A DNA stretch of 40,558 nucleotides, from NCBI GenBank assembly GCA_947631705.1, contig CANRMJ010000012.1, positions 1-40,558 on the forward strand. The letters are read 5' to 3'. Source of the stretch: an uncultured Clostridia bacterium. Lineage in GTDB: Bacteria; Bacillota; Clostridia; Oscillospirales; Acutalibacteraceae. Of this stretch, positions 7,471 to 22,730 are shown piece after piece. The position numbers and the translations under genes are program-made. The notes beneath the pieces were generated by a model. It had not been told where the DNA came from, searched no databases, and saw only the letters and a program-made list of their open reading frames with translations. Within the stretch, counting starts at the first letter, position 1; every line of letters begins with the position of its first letter.

Positions 7471-9459
7471 TTCGCTTTCTTCATTTTCCGCGCCGTTGTT
7501 AATTTCATTATCATTATTTTCAGCGTCGGTATTATCTGTTGTTTCGTTTTCTGCCGAATCGTCTTTATTCTCGGACACAGCGTTATTTTCCTCTTTATTC
7601 GGAAGAGCGCCGGTTTTCATAAGAGATTCAAACTCTTCTCCCGAAATTTTTTCGTTTTTGAGAAGTGTTTCGGCAATCAGTATAAGTTTATCATTATGTT
7701 CTCGAAGAATTTTTTCCGTCATATTATAAGCGTGACGCATCATTTTTTCAATTTCCGCGTCGATTCTTGCGGAAGTTGCCTCACTGTAATTATTTACGTG
7801 ACCGTAATCTCTGCCGAGAAATACCTCATTGTTTTCATCGCTGTAAACAACAGGACCGAGCTCATCGCTCATACCGTATTTTGACACCATATCGCGGCAA
7901 ATTTGCGAAGCGCGCTGAAGATCGTTTGACGCGCCGGTTGAAATATCATCAAGAGAAATCGCCTCGGCAACACGACCTCCGAGCATAGATACGAGAAGAT
8001 CGAGCATTTCATTTTTGGAGTCATAATTCTCCTCCTGCGGCTGATACATCGTATATCCACCCGCTCCGAGCCCTCTCGGAATAATTGATATCTCCTGAAC
8101 GGGATCATGGTGCTCAAGATAATACGACGCAACGGCATGACCCGCTTCATGATAAGCGGTAAGTTTTTTAGCTCTTTCGGAATATTTATGCGATTTTTTC
8201 TCGGCGCCCATTACAACTTTTGTGCTTGCGTCCTGAATTTCAGCATATGAAATCGCATGCTTATGCCTGCGTGCGGCAAGCAGAGCGGCTTCGTTGAGCA
8301 AATTTTCAAGATCGGCGCCGGTGAAGCCCATAGTGCTCTTTGCAACCTCTTTCAGATTAACATCCGGCGCAAGCGGCTTGTTTCTTGAATGAACCTTGAG
8401 AATGTCCTCTCTTCCCTGCGCGTCGGGTCTGTTGACGGTGATTTGTCGGTCAAAACGACCCGGTCGCAGAAGTGCCGGATCAAGTACATCGGGTCTGTTC
8501 GTTGCGGCGATAACAATAACTCCGCTGTTTGTTCCGAATCCGTCCATCTCAACAAGAAGCTGATTAAGCGTTTGCTCTCTTTCATCGTTGCTGTTTCCGG
8601 CGCCGGCGCCTCTGTGTCTGCCCACGGCGTCTATTTCATCTATAAACACAATTGCCGGACTTTTCTTGATTGCCTGATTAAACAAATCTCTTACACGGCT
8701 TGCGCCCACGCCGACATACATTTCAACAAAATCAGAGCCTGAAATTGATAAAAACGGAACAACAGCTTCGCCCGCAACAGCCTTTGCAAGCAACGTTTTA
8801 CCTGTTCCCGGAGGTCCAACGAGCAACACGCCCTTAGGAATACGCGCACCGAGCTCCGTGAATTTTTTCGGATCTTTTAGGAAATCAACAATCTCCTGCA
8901 AATCATCTTTTTCCTCATCGCAACCCGCAACGTCCGCGAATGTTTTGGTTTCTCCGTTTTCGGAAAGACTTTTTGTTCGCACCTTGCCGAATCCGATGGA
9001 ACGGTTTGTTTCGTTATTCATTGTGGCTGTCATTCTTTTAACCATAAACCAACCGCCGACTATAAGCAAAACGGCAATTAATAAGGTTGGAAGAAGACTT
9101 ATAATCCAGTTTCGAGAGTTGCTTACCTTATAATTATAAACGATCTGATTATCCGGGTGCTCCTCGTTATAATCATTTACACTTTCTCTTATGTCTTCAA
9201 GAAAATAAGTTACGCTTTTAACATTATATTTTTCTTGAGCATCGGGATTTGCAAATGTTTTATAAACCATAGCTCCTGTCGATAAATCAAGCTCAAATTC
9301 CGACACTTGATCGGTTTTGAACAGATTTACTATTTCGCTGTATTTTTTCTCGGCGCTTTTATCCGCATTAACGTAATAAAACACAGCGCTTGAAAGAACT
9401 ATGGCTGTTAAAATACAGATAAGAATTGATGTCAAATTTTTAGACACATTATTGTTCAT
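7456..9459 (-). CDS. ftsH: ATP-dependent zinc metalloprotease FtsH
   Basis: Membrane-anchored AAA+ protease that extracts and degrades membrane and regulatory proteins, 667 aa. Transmembrane helices lie near residues 9-29 and 118-139 with the small extracytoplasmic domain between them. Walker A is GPPGTGKT (215-222), Walker B is [11 protein letters not shown] (270-280), the second region of homology is [20 protein letters not shown], and the zinc site is HEAGH (437-441). The C-terminus is a long acidic, Asn/Glu/Ser-rich tail, common in FtsH. The start overlaps the tilS stop by one base (TAATG), so translation is coupled. In Bacillus hpt lies between tilS and ftsH; here it is absent. It is the last gene of the operon. 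Confidence 0.98.
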
Positions 9460-17475: not shown

Positions 17476-17862
17476 CTAAACTTTATAAATCAAAAATTTT
17501 CTAATAAAGAAATTCCAAAGAAATACTATTCCCGTTGCAATTATTTTTGAAATCATTTCATTAATTCCGATCAGATTAACTGCTATCCACATTATCAAAA
17601 GATTCATTAGTAAACCGGCAATGCTTGTAAGATAAATTTTAGCAAGCTCCTTTAAAACGTTTTGCTTTTCCTTAAAAAGAATAATTTTACCAAAAGCCCA
17701 ATTTGCAAAGGTGGAGATAATAAATGCAAGTGCTGTAGCAATCATATAGTTAATTGCGCACATTTTATTAAAAATATAAAACGCTGCCCATTCAACAACT
17801 GTAGCAAGTCCGCCGACTATTACATACAGCGCAAGCTGTTTTAAATTTTCTTTCAATTTCAT
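17476..17862 (-). CDS. GtrA family membrane protein
   Basis: 128 aa with four predicted transmembrane helices. The GtrA signature is visible: ALYVIVGGLATVVEWAAFY at the start, TFANWAFGKIILFK in the middle, and a C-terminal helix ending FFIRKFLIYKV. GtrA proteins are thought to help move undecaprenyl-phosphate-linked sugars across the membrane for glycan decoration. The start is the ATG at 17860-17862 with GAGG 6 nt upstream; an upstream TTG frame extension is rejected. It is last in a three-gene unit with the DUF6020-like and mutase-like genes. Confidence 0.88.
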   Translation of the reverse strand: MKLKENLKQLALYVIVGGLATVVEWAAFYIFNKMCAINYMIATALAFIISTFANWAFGKIILFKEKQNVLKELAKIYLTSIAGLLMNLLIMWIAVNLIGINEMISKIIATGIVFLWNFFIRKFLIYKV

Positions 17863-17890
17863 ATAAGACCTCAAAAATAATTATAACTAT

Positions 17891-19504
17891 TTATTGTTTC
17901 GGAAACAGAAATTTAAGTTTTGAATCAATTCTATTTTCGGTTTTTACCTCATTATTCTCCGATTTAAGCGTCAAAACAAAAATCAAGAGCGGAGTAATCA
18001 AAAAAGTGTAATAAAAGAATCTGAAATCAGTTCCGGACAGCATAAGCATTGTACCGAAATTATACATAAATAAAGGGATACAAAAGAGAATTTTTCTAAA
18101 GTCAGCAACTTTTCTGAATTTTGAAACCATAAAAGTAAGCAAAATTAACATATATAATCCAACGCACCAGCTTGGATAAGCAAACCACGATTTTATAACA
18201 GTTTGATTAAGCAACAGTTGCATTTGATATATCATTCCGACTCCTTGATAATCAATGCCTAAATCGTTATCATTGATTTCAGGCAAAACTGCCCAATAAC
18301 AGTTTTCGGTGCTTATTGCCCAAACCATTTCCGTTGCCTTTATCAATGCATCAAAAGCATAAACAGGTGACGATATCATACATTTAGCAGTGATTTTAAG
18401 TATTTTCATCGCACTGACATCTTCAATATGATCCAAGTTATAAACAACACTTTTAATGCTGTTCCATCCTGATCTCGGACTGTATTTATTCCACTCCTCC
18501 TGTGTCCCGATTGAATAAACAAACTCTTTTGATTCATCATCAAGATCTTCTGGTGTCTCTTTGACCACGTTTGCAATTATGCTCATAGGCAAACCCGTCA
18601 TTTCAACTTGCCGTCTGTTAGGATCTTGCACATTGAAAGCAGAATAAAGAGGTACTTTCACAAAAATACAAAGAACTGCAAAAAGAGCAATTAGTTTTAC
18701 TTTATTTTTCCACGCTTTTTTTATCGTTCCGCTAACAAACAAAATTGCAATTAGATACGGAATGGTAAACAATATTGCATTGTGTCTTGAACATTGCGCG
18801 ATGCAAAGAAAAACAGCAAGAGCGGCTATATTCATAAATTTTCTAAGCCACTCACCATTTGTGGCATATATGTGAACACCAAAACTCACGCACATTAATA
18901 CGCAAATTGCAAACGTGATATCTTTCCAAGGGTAAAGTATCATTATTGAGGTTACAGGATTAAAAACAATTACAGCAAATGCTATAAACACATAGAATTT
19001 TCTTTTTGAATAAGTAAGCATTGTTAACATTGCATAAGCGACGGCAAGAGAAAATTCAATAATTTGCAAAAGTACAACAGCAAAATAGCTTTTAAATATA
19101 CGAAGTGGCAGAGTAAACACAAGCAGCGTTTGCAAATAGGGATGCCAATCGGAATAACTTCCAGATACAGCCTGTTTGTATTGTTCAATACTATCTGGGG
19201 AAAGACCGCCGGGAAACGCTCCCACATACCAAATCATTAACCAAAACAATGAAATTCCGAAAAACAATATAAAATATTTAAATTTGATTTTCTTTGAGCA
19301 GACTCCATCTTTTTTTAATTCAAACTTTTTTATTTTCGGAATTATGAAATAGAAGAAAAGCGTTACCGCAAACGGCAGAATTAATTTGCCAAAAGAAGAA
19401 ATATAGTTTTCATCTATAAGCGCCTCTAAGTATATTACGCAAAGTGTGTAAATTATGAGAAGTACTCCCCATATTCCATTTATGTTTTTAAAAATCTTTT
19501 TCAT
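17891..19504 (-). CDS. Multi-pass membrane protein, DUF6020-like, possible GT-C type glycosyltransferase
   Basis: 537 aa with roughly 12-14 hydrophobic helices. After two or three helices comes the conserved extracytoplasmic block YVGAFPGGLSPDSIEQYKQA, then SDWHPYLQTLL, resembling the acidic first loop of GT-C membrane glycosyltransferases and the DUF6020 family. A large outside loop lies around residues 310-390 (MSIIANVVKETPEDLDDES). The frame runs upstream to 19639 inside the flavoprotein gene; the ATG at 19502-19504 is chosen because it follows GGGG and a natural 37-nt gap. The middle gene of the cassette, probably acting on a lipid-linked sugar, though activity is inferred only. Confidence 0.7.
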   Translation of the reverse strand: MKKIFKNINGIWGVLLIIYTLCVIYLEALIDENYISSFGKLILPFAVTLFFYFIIPKIKKFELKKDGVCSKKIKFKYFILFFGISLFWLMIWYVGAFPGGLSPDSIEQYKQAVSGSYSDWHPYLQTLLVFTLPLRIFKSYFAVVLLQIIEFSLAVAYAMLTMLTYSKRKFYVFIAFAVIVFNPVTSIMILYPWKDITFAICVLMCVSFGVHIYATNGEWLRKFMNIAALAVFLCIAQCSRHNAILFTIPYLIAILFVSGTIKKAWKNKVKLIALFAVLCIFVKVPLYSAFNVQDPNRRQVEMTGLPMSIIANVVKETPEDLDDESKEFVYSIGTQEEWNKYSPRSGWNSIKSVVYNLDHIEDVSAMKILKITAKCMISSPVYAFDALIKATEMVWAISTENCYWAVLPEINDNDLGIDYQGVGMIYQMQLLLNQTVIKSWFAYPSWCVGLYMLILLTFMVSKFRKVADFRKILFCIPLFMYNFGTMLMLSGTDFRFFYYTFLITPLLIFVLTLKSENNEVKTENRIDSKLKFLFPKQ

Positions 19505-19541
19505 ATAATTTACCCCGCAAAAACAGCCTATCGCCACCGTC

Positions 19542-21098
19542 TTATTGTTCGGCCTTTTCATGATATTCCTGTTCTGTATTGACATTCCAGATATTTGTTT
19601 TGTCCTTTTCTCCTGTAATAATATTTTTAACAGCTTCAAAAGACGTCATCATTGAGTGGTCTATATTATTATAGCGGTGCTGTCCGTTACGTCCCACGCA
19701 ATATAAGTTTTCAATTGTATTAAGGTAATTAATAAGCTTATCCATTTCATCATATGTATCAAAATAAGCCGGATACGCTTTTTTAACTCTTTCCATATGA
19801 TAATCCATGACGCTATCAGGACTGTCGATTAATCCAAGCTTTATCATTTCAGATATTCCGATTTCTGCAAATTGTTCTTCAGACATATTCCAAAAATCGT
19901 CGCCCTCATTAACGAAATATTCAAGACCTAACCAAACTGTATTTTCAAGATCCTTAACCAAATACGGCGACCAGTTGTTATATATTTGAAAACGTCCCAT
20001 TTTAACGTTTCTGTCCTGAACATATACCCAGCAATCGGGTACTATATTTCCGATTGTTTTCATGTCGGTTCTATTTTTAAGGTTCAACTTTGATACAAGA
20101 ACTCCAAGAGTCATATAATCGCGGTAAGGCAGACCTTCGGCGATACGTTTTGGTTCAGACGGTACGCCGTTCATTCCTTCAATCAAATCCTTAATCGGCA
20201 TAGACGATATAATGTAATCGCCGTCTACAGTTATAAATTCACCGTTTTTTTTATATGTCAGCGAAGTGATTAAATTATTTTCGTTCTTATTTATTCCAAT
20301 AACTTTTGCGTTTTTAACTATTTTTCCGCCAAGCTTTTTTACTTCATCTGCAGTAACATCCCATAATTGTCCAGGACCTAATTTAGGATATTTAAACTCT
20401 TCTATAAGTGAGGTTTCAACCTTACGGTTTTCTTTATTGAAAATTTTTCCTAAAATATCTTTTAGAACAGCAGATATCGAAAGACCTTTAACACGCTGTG
20501 CCCCCCAAGAAGCATCTATTTCACTTGGATGTCTTCCCCAGAGATTTTCTGTATAATATTCAAAAAACATTGAATATAACTTTTTTCCAAAACGATTTAT
20601 ATAGAAATTTTCAAGATTGTCCTCAGGTAATTTATGAACCATCGCAGCCAAATAACTGAAACCAACCTTTATTGTATTTACAATACCCATATTTTTAAGC
20701 GTTTCCATTTTAAGAGAAACGGGATAGTCATAAAATTTAGAATCAAAAAGTATTCGTGAAACACGATTTCTCATGAGCATTACTTGATCCTCTGTTTCAG
20801 GATTTGGACCATGGTTTGAAAGAGGAACGTTTCTTCTAAGCACAGCATCGTCATAAGACGGCTTGCCCTGTAATGGAAGCATTTTTTCCCACCAATCATT
20901 TACCTCCGAAACTTTAGAAAAAAATCTGTGACCTCCCATATCCATACGGTTGCCTTTATATTCAACAGTTTTTGATATGCCTCCAAAAGCATCGCTTTCT
21001 TCAAATACAATTACCTCAATATCATCAGATCTTTTCAGCAATTCATAAGCAGCAGTTAATCCGGCAGGTCCTGCACCAATTACTAAAGCTTTTTTCAT
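19542..21098 (-). CDS. FAD-dependent UDP-galactopyranose-mutase-like / NAD(P)-binding flavoprotein
   Basis: 518 aa. The Rossmann FAD motif is [18 protein letters not shown] near the N-terminus, followed by [14 protein letters not shown] and [10 protein letters not shown]. Blocks such as [15 protein letters not shown] and [19 protein letters not shown], and the C-terminal [11 protein letters not shown], resemble the amine-oxidase/UDP-galactopyranose mutase-like proteins found next to glycosyltransferases and GtrA. Whether it isomerises a nucleotide sugar or oxidises another substrate is unknown. Ribosome binding site AAAGGGA. It is the first gene of the cassette; its start lies 21 bp from the left inverted repeat, and the promoter that reads into it lies inside the putative invertible segment. 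Confidence 0.75.
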
Positions 21099-21119
21099 TC
21101 ATTTTCCCTTTCTGCAACA

Positions 21120-21145
21120 TTCATATATTAGCCTCATATATGAAA
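21120..21145 (+). repeat. Left copy of 26-bp inverted repeat (putative recombination site)
   Basis: Perfect reverse complement of 21413-21438. Internally it is TTCATATAT, then a 7-bp core TAGCCTC, then ATATATGAA: 9-bp inverted arms around an asymmetric core, the layout of a tyrosine recombinase crossover site. Confidence 0.9.
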
Positions 21146-21175
21146 TGCTTAATTATTATAAAAATTGTTTTATGA

Positions 21176-21205
21176 ATTATAGCATAATATATGCTATATT
21201 TGCAA
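21176..21205 (-). promoter_or_regulatory. Extended -10 promoter inside the invertible segment, reading into the glycan cassette
   Basis: Minus strand TTGCAA (21200-21205), 18-nt spacer, TATAAT (21176-21181) preceded by TGC, so an extended -10. The predicted transcript starts near 21169 and gives a leader of about 70 nt across the left repeat. Confidence 0.75.
21179..21197. repeat. 8-bp inverted repeat within the invertible promoter
   Basis: ATAGCATA and TATGCTAT separated by 3 nt, covering the spacer and overlapping the -10 box. It is a possible operator for a dimeric regulator. Confidence 0.5.
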
Positions 21206-21412
21206 TATAAATTTTAATCTATTAATTCATTTTTCATTTTCTAAAATTAATATTATTGTTCTTGATGTATATTTATCATGAATAATAAAATCAATTTTTA
21301 AAAATATGTTCAAAACAAACAAAATTTTATACTTAAATTAATAAATTATTTGCCGTCAAATTTATGGTAAATTATTCAATCATTTCAGCAATAATCTAAA
21401 ATATTTCCCGTT

Positions 21413-21438
21413 TTTCATATATGAGGCTAATATATGAA
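21413..21438 (-). repeat. Right copy of 26-bp inverted repeat (putative recombination site)
   Basis: Exact reverse complement of 21120-21145. On the plus strand its core reads GAGGCTA between the same ATATAT-rich arms, so the two cores face opposite ways, as needed for inversion rather than deletion. Confidence 0.9.
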
Positions 21439-21447
21439 ATTATATTT

Positions 21448-21490
21448 AAAAACGCGGCTGCTCATCAAATTTGAGTCAGTCGCGTTTTTA
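21448..21490. terminator. Bidirectional terminator between the FliB-like gene and the right inverted repeat
   Basis: Stem AAAACGCGGCTG/CAGTCGCGTTTT (one mismatch) around a 16-nt loop, with a T tract on each strand. The arm on the gene side encodes the last residues of the FliB-like protein. It insulates the invertible segment on its far side. Confidence 0.85.
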
Positions 21491-22427
21491 ATTCGTTTAC
21501 TGAAAAATTAACATTATTTTTCAGCTCATATTCATATCTTCTCATATTGATATCGCTATGCTCGGTTTCTTTGCTCCAAAGGTGAACAGTCCACGCGTTG
21601 TTGCCAAAATAAGATGGGATCATAGCGCCTATAACAGCCATTTTCACTTTAGACAAAATGTCTTTATCATACACTGCCGTCAGAAAATATCTGTAAAGAA
21701 AATACATTGCAGTGTTTTCACAGCTTTTCGGATTATCAAAATTTACTTTATCGGAGTGGTTATCAACCTTTTCAAGCCACTCGGGATTAATAAGTTCGGG
21801 ATTTCTGAAAACGTCAAAAAAATCCGTTTCACTATCCTGTTCTGTATATTTTCCAAGCTCATTTTGAAGATTTTCGGCAAAATCAAGAAGATTTATAAGG
21901 CGTTGATTCAATGGCAATCCTCTGTCTGTTACGATCTTGTATGCATTTTTTCTCGCTTTTACAAGTTTAAAATACAACTCGGCGTTAATGTCATTGAGTA
22001 TGGGAGGCAAATTATTAATTTCATCGCAAAAATCAAATGATTCCGCGTTCCACATCATCTCAGCCGCCACAGGGCAGGAAAATGAAATTCCGATTTCTCT
22101 TGTGCCTCCGAAATCATTTATAAATCTTGGGAAAGTTCGGCAGGTGTAAGGTGTGTGCTCCTGCCCTATTTCGATATGCATATCGCATAAATTTTCGGCG
22201 TTTAAAAACGGACAGCGCTTATTATCGGTTAAACGAAACACCGTGTTTCCGAATTCATCTTTATCTAAAAGCGACTCAATGTGCCTGCCGAAATCATTTT
22301 TTAAAGATTTATAATATTCAAGCGAATCTTTATCAGCATCAACCTCCCAACCCTGGCAGCAGGAATCGGGACAATCGCCGGCAATGCATTTAAAATCTTT
22401 ATAAAAAGCGGGAGTTCTTATAATCAT
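21465..22427 (-). CDS. FliB-like / YkgJ-type cysteine-cluster protein (putative lysine N-methylase family)
   Basis: 320 aa. The cysteine-cluster family pattern is clear: CIAGDCPDSCCQGW near residue 14, then CPFLNAENLCDMH, YTCRTFPR and FSCPVAAE, eight or more Cys likely to hold an Fe-S cluster or zinc. FliB methylates flagellin lysines in Salmonella, and members in Clostridia are annotated as flagellin lysine-N-methylase. No flagellar genes are nearby, so the substrate is open. The start codon sits immediately next to the 83-bp palindromic element and has no properly spaced ribosome binding site (AAGG is 14 nt away). It ends inside a terminator. Confidence 0.8.
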   Translation of the reverse strand: MIIRTPAFYKDFKCIAGDCPDSCCQGWEVDADKDSLEYYKSLKNDFGRHIESLLDKDEFGNTVFRLTDNKRCPFLNAENLCDMHIEIGQEHTPYTCRTFPRFINDFGGTREIGISFSCPVAAEMMWNAESFDFCDEINNLPPILNDINAELYFKLVKARKNAYKIVTDRGLPLNQRLINLLDFAENLQNELGKYTEQDSETDFFDVFRNPELINPEWLEKVDNHSDKVNFDNPKSCENTAMYFLYRYFLTAVYDKDILSKVKMAVIGAMIPSYFGNNAWTVHLWSKETEHSDINMRRYEYELKNNVNFSVNELKTRLTQI

Positions 22428-22430
22428 TTT

Positions 22431-22513
22431 AATTCACATAGCCTTTCCGACCGCAAACAGTAGTTAAAATCACGATATCCCTTGCCGCAGTCAAACAAGG
22501 CGTGATGTGAATT
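22431..22513. repeat. 83-bp palindromic element abutting the FliB-like gene start
   Basis: Terminal 9-bp perfect inverted repeats AATTCACAT (22431-22439) and ATGTGAATT (22505-22513), then nested complementary pairs GCCTT/AAGGC and GACCGC/GCAGTC (one wobble pair), making one long hairpin with a loop of about 30 nt. On the minus strand it would form in the leader of the FliB-like mRNA. It may be a dispersed MITE-like repeat or a structured RNA leader; I recognise no known riboswitch class. Confidence 0.65.
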
Positions 22514-22607: not shown

Positions 22608-22646
22608 AAAAAAGACTCGGAATTCAAATGAAAACCAAGTCTTTTT
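22608..22646 (-). terminator. Terminator of the tRNA-Leu gene
   Basis: Directly after the encoded CCA the minus strand forms AAAAGACTTGG/CCGAGTCTTTT with a 14-nt loop and ends in T6. Confidence 0.9.
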
Positions 22647-22730
22647 GGTGCGAGAGACGGGACTTGAACCCGTACGAGTCGCCCCACACGCCCCTCAAAC
22701 GTGCGCGTCTGCCGATTCCGCCACTCTCGC
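22646..22730 (-). tRNA. tRNA-Leu (anticodon GAG), CCA encoded
   Basis: 85 nt including CCA. The acceptor stem GCGAGAG pairs with CTCTCGC and A precedes CCA. The anticodon stem CACGT/GCGTG closes a TTGAGGG loop with anticodon GAG, so it reads CUC/CUU. A long variable arm (class II) and a T arm CGGGTTCAAGTCCCG are present. It has its own promoter and terminator. Confidence 0.95.

Follow-up and report, generated by a model that had tools for sequence, protein, structure and literature searches.

A probable invertible promoter of a tyrosine-recombinase site family ahead of a flavoprotein–DUF6020–GtrA gene cluster in an uncultured Clostridia bacterium

The Locus and Its Inverted Repeats

The window, by which we mean the whole stretch of 40,558 nucleotides analyzed here, comes from an uncultured Clostridia bacterium whose genome assembly (G000; G, L, and C numbers are our handles for genomes, loci, and contigs) amounts to 2.04 Mb in 129 contigs and is 92% complete. 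On its minus strand, the genes for a flavoprotein, a DUF6020 protein, and a GtrA family protein follow one another (Table 1) and presumably form one operon. A sequence-only reading of this DNA had described them as a glycan-modification cassette; this putative role is drawn from the family names GtrA, DUF6020, and PRK07208-type flavoprotein. A fourth minus-strand ORF lies upstream of the flavoprotein gene, and just upstream of that ORF a tRNA-Leu (gag) gene, at 22646–22730, is a possible integration landmark.

Table 1. Features of the switch region in window coordinates.
Feature	Position	Strand	Remarks
Left recombination site (predicted)	21120–21145	+	9-bp arm TTCATATAT, 7-bp core TAGCCTC (21129–21135), 9-bp arm ATATATGAA, plus A
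Right recombination site (predicted), inverted copy	21413–21438	-	Identity 26/26 to left site
Segment between sites	21146–21412		267 bp, 16% G+C
Extended -10 promoter match	21176–21205	-	TTGCAA-18-TATAAT (TGCTATAAT); 30 bp from left site, outward to flavoprotein gene
Probable ribosome-binding site	21106–21111	-	AAAGGG; between left site and ATG at 21098; by eye
Hairpin with A/T runs on both sides	21446–21491		Outside right site; folds at -26.1 / -20.7 kcal/mol (two strands)
Flavoprotein, amine oxidase / PRK07208-type	19542–21098	-	518 aa; first controlled gene; family search
DUF6020 protein	17891–19639	-	582 aa from listed TTG (true start may lie inside); second gene; family search
GtrA family protein	17476–17874	-	132 aa; third gene; family search
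Upstream gene	21465–22427	-	320 aa; no Pfam family; family search

Between the flavoprotein gene and the upstream ORF stand two inverted 26-bp copies, complementary at 26/26 positions and separated by 267 nt with a G+C content of 16%, against 39% for the window. Each copy contains a 25-bp site of the form 9-7-9, with arms palindromic at 9/9 positions, TTC...GAA ends, and the core TAGCCTC. The sequence-only reading had reported the exact copies, the A+T-rich DNA between them, and the arms around the core in each copy, and all of these, coordinates included, proved correct. Within 5 kb this is the longest exact inverted pair of the window, the runner-up measuring 18 bp. When positions 20501–22500 were shuffled 500 times with dinucleotides preserved (spacing 60–1500 bp), the longest exact inverted repeat was at most 16 bp, against the 26 bp observed, and 0/500 shuffles reached an exact pair of 20 bp.

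The promoter match inside the segment has TG / TGC ahead of its -10 and agrees at 8/8 letters with the outward motif of related segments described below. It was confirmed as a sequence match, aimed, as previously proposed, at the first cassette gene, whose ATG lies 21 bp beyond the left repeat; matches of the sigma-70 type in general are no more frequent in the region than chance predicts (9 vs 6.3 expected, sd 2.8). The hairpin outside the right site is likely the terminator of the upstream ORF on the minus strand, and on the plus strand it would likely halt an inverted (OFF) promoter. A stricter consensus terminator scan listed nothing between 20900 and 21700, and under the layout rule used below a weaker hairpin (-13.6) was found inside the start of the flavoprotein gene. 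With the promoter directed outward to the flavoprotein gene and the strong hairpin outside the opposite end, the layout reads as ON in the assembly, the state that the sequence-only reading had assigned.

Distribution of the Pair and of the Genes Behind It

A short A+T-rich unit framed by terminal inverted repeats could also be the remnant of a MITE, with a promoter enclosed by chance. Copies at many unrelated loci with target duplications, which the sequence-only reading had named as the mark of such an element, did not materialize: a search of the genome for the 26-bp site, which it had also proposed, returned only this one pair with up to three mismatches allowed, and a target duplication flanking the 319-bp unit was looked for and not found. 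At the same tolerance the site was missing from 97 other genomes searched; the exact site had no match among viral contigs, nor the 501-bp region in plasmids. Furthermore, the terminal repeats are themselves 9-7-9 dyads that resemble recombinase sites. The MITE explanation can claim a syntenic locus that has no such pair, and on balance we regard it as extremely unlikely. That locus (L003, from the uncultured Clostridia MAG Lapin-003-2) has homologs of the 320-aa ORF, the flavoprotein, and the DUF6020 protein in this order, with identities of 70, 84, and 61%, and its contig ends within the DUF6020 gene; the roughly 90 bp between the ORF and flavoprotein homologs lack an inverted pair, and inspection by eye gave no obvious hairpin.

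More broadly, no 26-bp pair or pair of the TTCATATAT type was found upstream of the best 80 of 505 flavoprotein homologs, 7/80 of which had less than 700 bp upstream. Other pairs occur among these best 80 of 505, the longest being a 24-bp pair 154 bp apart (L065), along with a 21-bp tight hairpin in L004. In L065, from Butyrivibrio hungatei NK4A153, the exact 24-bp copies lie 348 and 170 bp upstream of the flavoprotein homolog and are accompanied by further 18- and 14-bp pairs; this is possibly another, unrelated rearranging or hairpin-rich region. The flavoprotein itself is 58–71% identical to its homologs in 18 loci of the genus (75% for a fragment in G020) and 73–84% identical to the best 80 of the 505 homologs, mostly from Lachnospiraceae. 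Because identities are higher in these 80 loci than in those of the genus, the comparison suggests a source outside the genus for the flavoprotein gene.

A Family of Sites Around Tyrosine Recombinase Genes

Relatives of the site were sought in 80 genomes of the genus with a core-free pattern (TTCATATAT, any 7 bases, ATATATGAA, at most two mismatches). Matches were present in 31/80 genomes, many of them chance-like single ones, and a reversed control pattern also matched. Inverted pairs were found in G057 and G006, with copies 316 and 1295 bp apart, respectively, and single matches in G099, G024, G054, and others. Fourteen places were taken for closer study. A second inverted copy and an enclosed tyrosine recombinase gene were found in G099, at two places in G024, and in G006; in G054 the recombinase gene was present and the inverted pair emerged at a finer setting. 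No recombinase-enclosing pair was seen at the places examined in G024 C11, G047, G116, G022, G109, G107, G023, and G014.

The G099 recombinase was then used as a protein query. It matched in 36/80 genus genomes at E 1e-20 or better, and the genus cassette set was formed from the 20 top rows, which come from 14 genomes and have E values of 2.1e-56 or better. An inverted pair bounds 19 of these 20 loci, at about 1.2–1.5 kb end to end, and a contig end truncates the 20th (G035). Across the order, 30/197 genomes matched at E 1e-40 or better (42 rows); the pair test covered 29 of these rows, and 23 of the 29 loci are enclosed by an inverted pair. In both sets the cassette segments measure about 1.2–1.6 kb, with the tyrosine recombinase gene inside. 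Under the same rule, pairs were rare around control genes: one borderline case among 14 other integrases, 0/11 flavoprotein genes (11 of the 18 genus loci), and 0/7 of the recombinase genes of the window genome itself. One locus at a contig start without a pair (L176, in G003) was left out of both cassette and control sets. The G099 query had no match in viral contigs, and the structures nearest to this enzyme by sequence are the Int proteins 6EN0 and 6EMY (E about 2e-16).

Most cassette sites consist of a 9-bp arm, a 7-bp core, and a 9-bp arm. The arm types TTCATATAT, TTCGCAGAG, and GCGTAGAAC tend, by eye, to track the recombinase subgroup, with exceptions. A half-site model was trained on the 23 enclosed order loci, which had been found via protein homology and thus independently of the arms of the window; the register of each training site was chosen from its palindromy and the agreement of cores, irrespective of letters, and two loci whose register is visibly off (L221 and L232) were retained. 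Among 40,534 positions, the two window sites received the top score (14.1 each), with an unrelated place at 9455 close behind in third rank (13.7). The presence of the same site family around tyrosine recombinase genes and the scores of the window copies in this model bear out their assignment as tyrosine-type recombination sites.

Outward Promoters and ON/OFF Layouts

Besides the window, one other short segment without a recombinase was found, that of G057, with an inner length of about 295 bp. Its two sites disagree at the last two inner bases, and its layout reads OFF, the promoter facing a terminator-like hairpin while the gene for a giant protein stands at the other end. This gene (L148:8516-14722) starts 94 bp beyond the other site and encodes more than 2000 aa, being open at the contig end. 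The protein has a signal-peptide-like start by eye, has no Pfam match at E 0.001, and is related to giants beside the G099 and G006 cassettes, of which the G099 giant bears laminin-G.

When these two short segments were pooled with the 19 genus cassettes, an outward TGNTATAAT with at least 7/8 letters was found in 20/21 segments, at the end upstream of the recombinase or its equivalent, compared with a mean of 8.5 (largest 15) in shuffles that preserve composition only and 10 on the inward strand. Perfect outward matches number 8/21, both short segments included (6/19 without them), against a mean of 0.5 and a maximum of 4 in shuffles of all 21 and none inward. The match lies 27–51 bp from the site in 17/21 segments and 65–175 bp from it in G029, G037b, G054b, and G055.

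States were assigned by simple rules to 42 cassettes. Eight read as ON, with a gene start just outside the promoter end, and 16 as OFF, with a terminator-like hairpin outside the promoter end and the gene at the other end; eight more are probably OFF and 10 were unassigned. A terminator outside the end opposite the controlled gene, which folds and the rule both place in the window, is frequent in the cassettes without being universal. One ON-layout cassette (L193:2774-5366) stands directly ahead of an Acyl_transf_3 gene, possibly encoding a glycan O-acetyltransferase.

Inversion of Related Cassettes Between Species

Four orthologous loci from four species, L204 in G105, L205 in G116, and L201 and L202 in G054 and G008, allow orientations to be compared. 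Between L204 and L205 the flanks are collinear (91% on one side, 73–79% on the other) and the 1.4-kb stretch that the sites delimit is inverted (92%), its breakpoints falling at the repeats. Likewise, L201 and L204 differ by an inverted segment between two collinear flanks. L202 has only one homologous flank; judged by it, the segment is oriented as in L204 and opposite to L201 and L205. Opposite orientations are therefore found in 4/6 comparisons, two of them with both flanks collinear, and these alignments indicate that the cassettes of one subgroup do invert. This subgroup has arm letters that differ from those of the window (GCGTAGAAC type). A conserved FeoB-like gene adjoins the cassette in all four loci; in G105, the operon beside the cassette encodes FHA, PP2C, and protein kinase domains, with homologs in G116.

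Each site, being a dyad, could instead bind a dimeric regulator, and two such operators flanking the promoter at a spacing of 294 bp would permit a loop without any movement of the DNA. However, both copies share the same asymmetric 7-bp core, and operators do not require such identity. Among the 42 enclosed relatives, moreover, cores differ between loci and agree within a pair (by eye, in a pair search that itself favors agreement), and related segments invert. An immobile pair of operators is consequently very unlikely. The invertible-promoter architecture that the sequence-only reading had proposed for the window is strongly indicated, with a related subgroup standing inverted between species and the site family surrounding tyrosine recombinase genes.

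Recombinases of the Window Genome

A Pfam search identified seven tyrosine and four serine recombinase genes in the window assembly; tyrosine rather than serine recombinases were followed because of the 7-bp core. Of the site-to-site architecture of the cassettes, the window with its 267 bp has no recombinase gene between the sites. A tree of 60 recombinase sequences, which included the 20 genus cassette enzymes and those of 22/29 order loci (among them L218, labeled as enclosed despite a pair score of 11, with no effect on the tree), grouped 41 rows in a cassette clade with support of 100/97, all 20 genus enzymes included. All seven tyrosine recombinases of the window genome and all three of G057 fall outside this clade, with long branches that leave the place of several of the window genome's own genes unsure. 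In that assembly, a profile of five cassette enzymes matched only these seven genes, with the best score for C39 (157.7 bits; 34% identity with the G099 enzyme). Protein, tree, and profile searches thus recovered no clade recombinase from G057 or from the 92% complete window assembly, which implies that the enzyme was lost, belongs to another kind, or lies in unassembled sequence. As the closest match in the genome, the C39 recombinase may be the enzyme of the window switch.

None of the candidates was accepted as a cassette enzyme. C39 is a near copy of an integrase in G047. The C6 recombinase sits between inverted pairs in hsdS-like genes. C19 groups with G057_C11 (100/98), adjoins a SpoIIM gene, and is probably a housekeeping Xer, while C118, C35, C54, and C51 have long branches that fall outside the cassette clade, their place being unsure. 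The C6 locus (L084, G000:C6:48652-52122) places a 326-aa tyrosine recombinase between two inverted pairs of ATAAATGATAATTTAGCGG(C), at 290/930 and 2526/3121, and is probably a phase-variable hsdS shuffle, its host genes being read by eye as type I restriction specificity subunits. Assembly breaks also seem to cluster at recombinase genes: among L135, L136, L137, and L138 (C51, C35, C39, and C118 of G000), three of the seven tyrosine recombinase genes have their start or end some 110 bp or less from the edge of a contig, and one more is on a 4-kb contig.

These results bear on the main rival explanation, in which the window holds a locked relic, that is, a former switch whose recombinase gene was lost and whose promoter is now fixed and constitutive. 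It draws on the lack of a clade recombinase in G000 and G057, on the two differing inner bases of the G057 sites, and on the inner lengths of the two short segments, 267 and about 295 bp, which come close to the non-coding ends of the G006 and G099 cassettes added together (about 250–280 bp). Nevertheless, the window sites are still identical at 26/26 positions with arm pairs palindromic at 9/9, a recombinase gene may be missing from an assembly that is 92% complete in 129 contigs, and no recombinase remnant was detected in the segment (none was convincing in either short segment; best E 0.29 in G000 and 0.065 in G057). Loss of the recombinase from a full cassette was also considered through homology of the 267-bp DNA to nine cassette promoter regions, an argument that was rejected (best comparison, with G027a, at 4/200 shuffles); for the inner DNA of G057, the best of the same nine comparisons stood at 20/200 shuffles. 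A locked relic appears unlikely, with more weight than the MITE or the operators.

Our preferred explanation, to which we give a probability of roughly 0.68, is that the window contains an invertible promoter of the tyrosine-recombinase site family, ON as assembled, for which the recombinase would be supplied from elsewhere or from unassembled sequence. Points that tell against it are the recombinases of G000 and G057, none of which joins the cassette clade, the chance-level alignment of the 267-bp DNA with cassette promoter regions, the score at 9455, the empty consensus terminator scan, and the different arm letters of the subgroup whose cassettes stand inverted. The window copy likely flips at present.

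Relation to Known Switches

Recombinase-driven invertible promoters are well known as a kind, and what is new here is a recombinase-less member of a recombinase-carrying family. To our knowledge, the placement of the promoter within the segment is not the rule for the RecV switches of Clostridioides difficile. Hin of Salmonella is a serine recombinase; unlike Hin, the enzyme enclosed in the relatives of the window is a tyrosine recombinase. For the fimS switch of Escherichia coli, the recombinase genes are adjacent and the repeats are 9 bp only.

The term "undescribed" used in the sequence-only reading is too strong for the kind, since Clostridia invertons linked to tyrosine recombinases are already published (PMC11892184). 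In that study (Microbiome 2025), inverton group 139, with 32/33 segments from Clostridia, is linked to tyrosine-type recombinase/integrase group 35, orientation shifts are followed in reads, and in two named examples repeats of about 13 and 25 bp enclose about 205–230 bp (PMC11892184). By this description, with motif letters left aside, group 139 resembles the window switch in its invertible segments and its link to a tyrosine recombinase; there, a recombinase was counted if it intersected the segment or lay within 5 kb (PMC11892184), whereas in the relatives of the window switch it lies inside the segment and in the window assembly none of its clade was found. The C. difficile RecV switches (flg, cwpV) likewise have inverted sites and a tyrosine recombinase that acts on multiple switches, a likeness drawn by description only (PMC5386303; PMC2784873; PMC5903667). 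In segment size, the window switch resembles E. coli fimS, a 314-bp element that is inverted by the tyrosine recombinase FimB and connects or disconnects an operon (PMC9993118). Recombinases occasionally lie inside the invertible segment, as described for Hin of Salmonella (PMC5903667), and in this respect Hin is like the relatives of the window and unlike the window copy, which has no enzyme inside. Nothing closer to the window layout was noted in the accessible text of PMC8138268. Among the titles and beginnings of abstracts listed, in a literature where subscription journals and supplements are thinly covered, none concerned tyrosine recombinases enclosed in promoter invertons with such a layout.

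Proposed Mechanism and Biological Meaning

In the proposed mechanism, a recombinase, encoded elsewhere or in unassembled sequence, would bind the 9-bp arms of both inverted 25-bp sites, and strands would be cut and exchanged over the identical 7-bp core, so that the 267-bp segment flips. In the ON state, transcription from the extended -10 promoter would pass the left site and enter the flavoprotein, DUF6020, and GtrA genes. In the OFF state, the flipped promoter would read through the right site into the two-way terminator hairpin, which would also shield the three genes from upstream transcription.

As a tentative and rather doubtful extension, recombinase-carrying invertons may have spread through the order as self-contained modules, some of which shed their recombinase and became non-autonomous satellites, such as those of the window and G057, worked in trans; the envelope operon would then be under a borrowed switch.

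An active switch in the window would mean that this uncultured bacterium turns an envelope operon on and off by inverting DNA. Seen more widely, the pattern amounts to a compact module, composed of a site, an outward promoter, a tyrosine recombinase gene, and a second site, often with a terminator outside, that can be recognized from sequence alone. Its neighbors include genes for surface giants, an acyltransferase, and an FHA-phosphatase-kinase operon. With such a pattern, phase variation could be predicted in genomes for which no reads exist, and new site/recombinase pairs would be on offer for testing.
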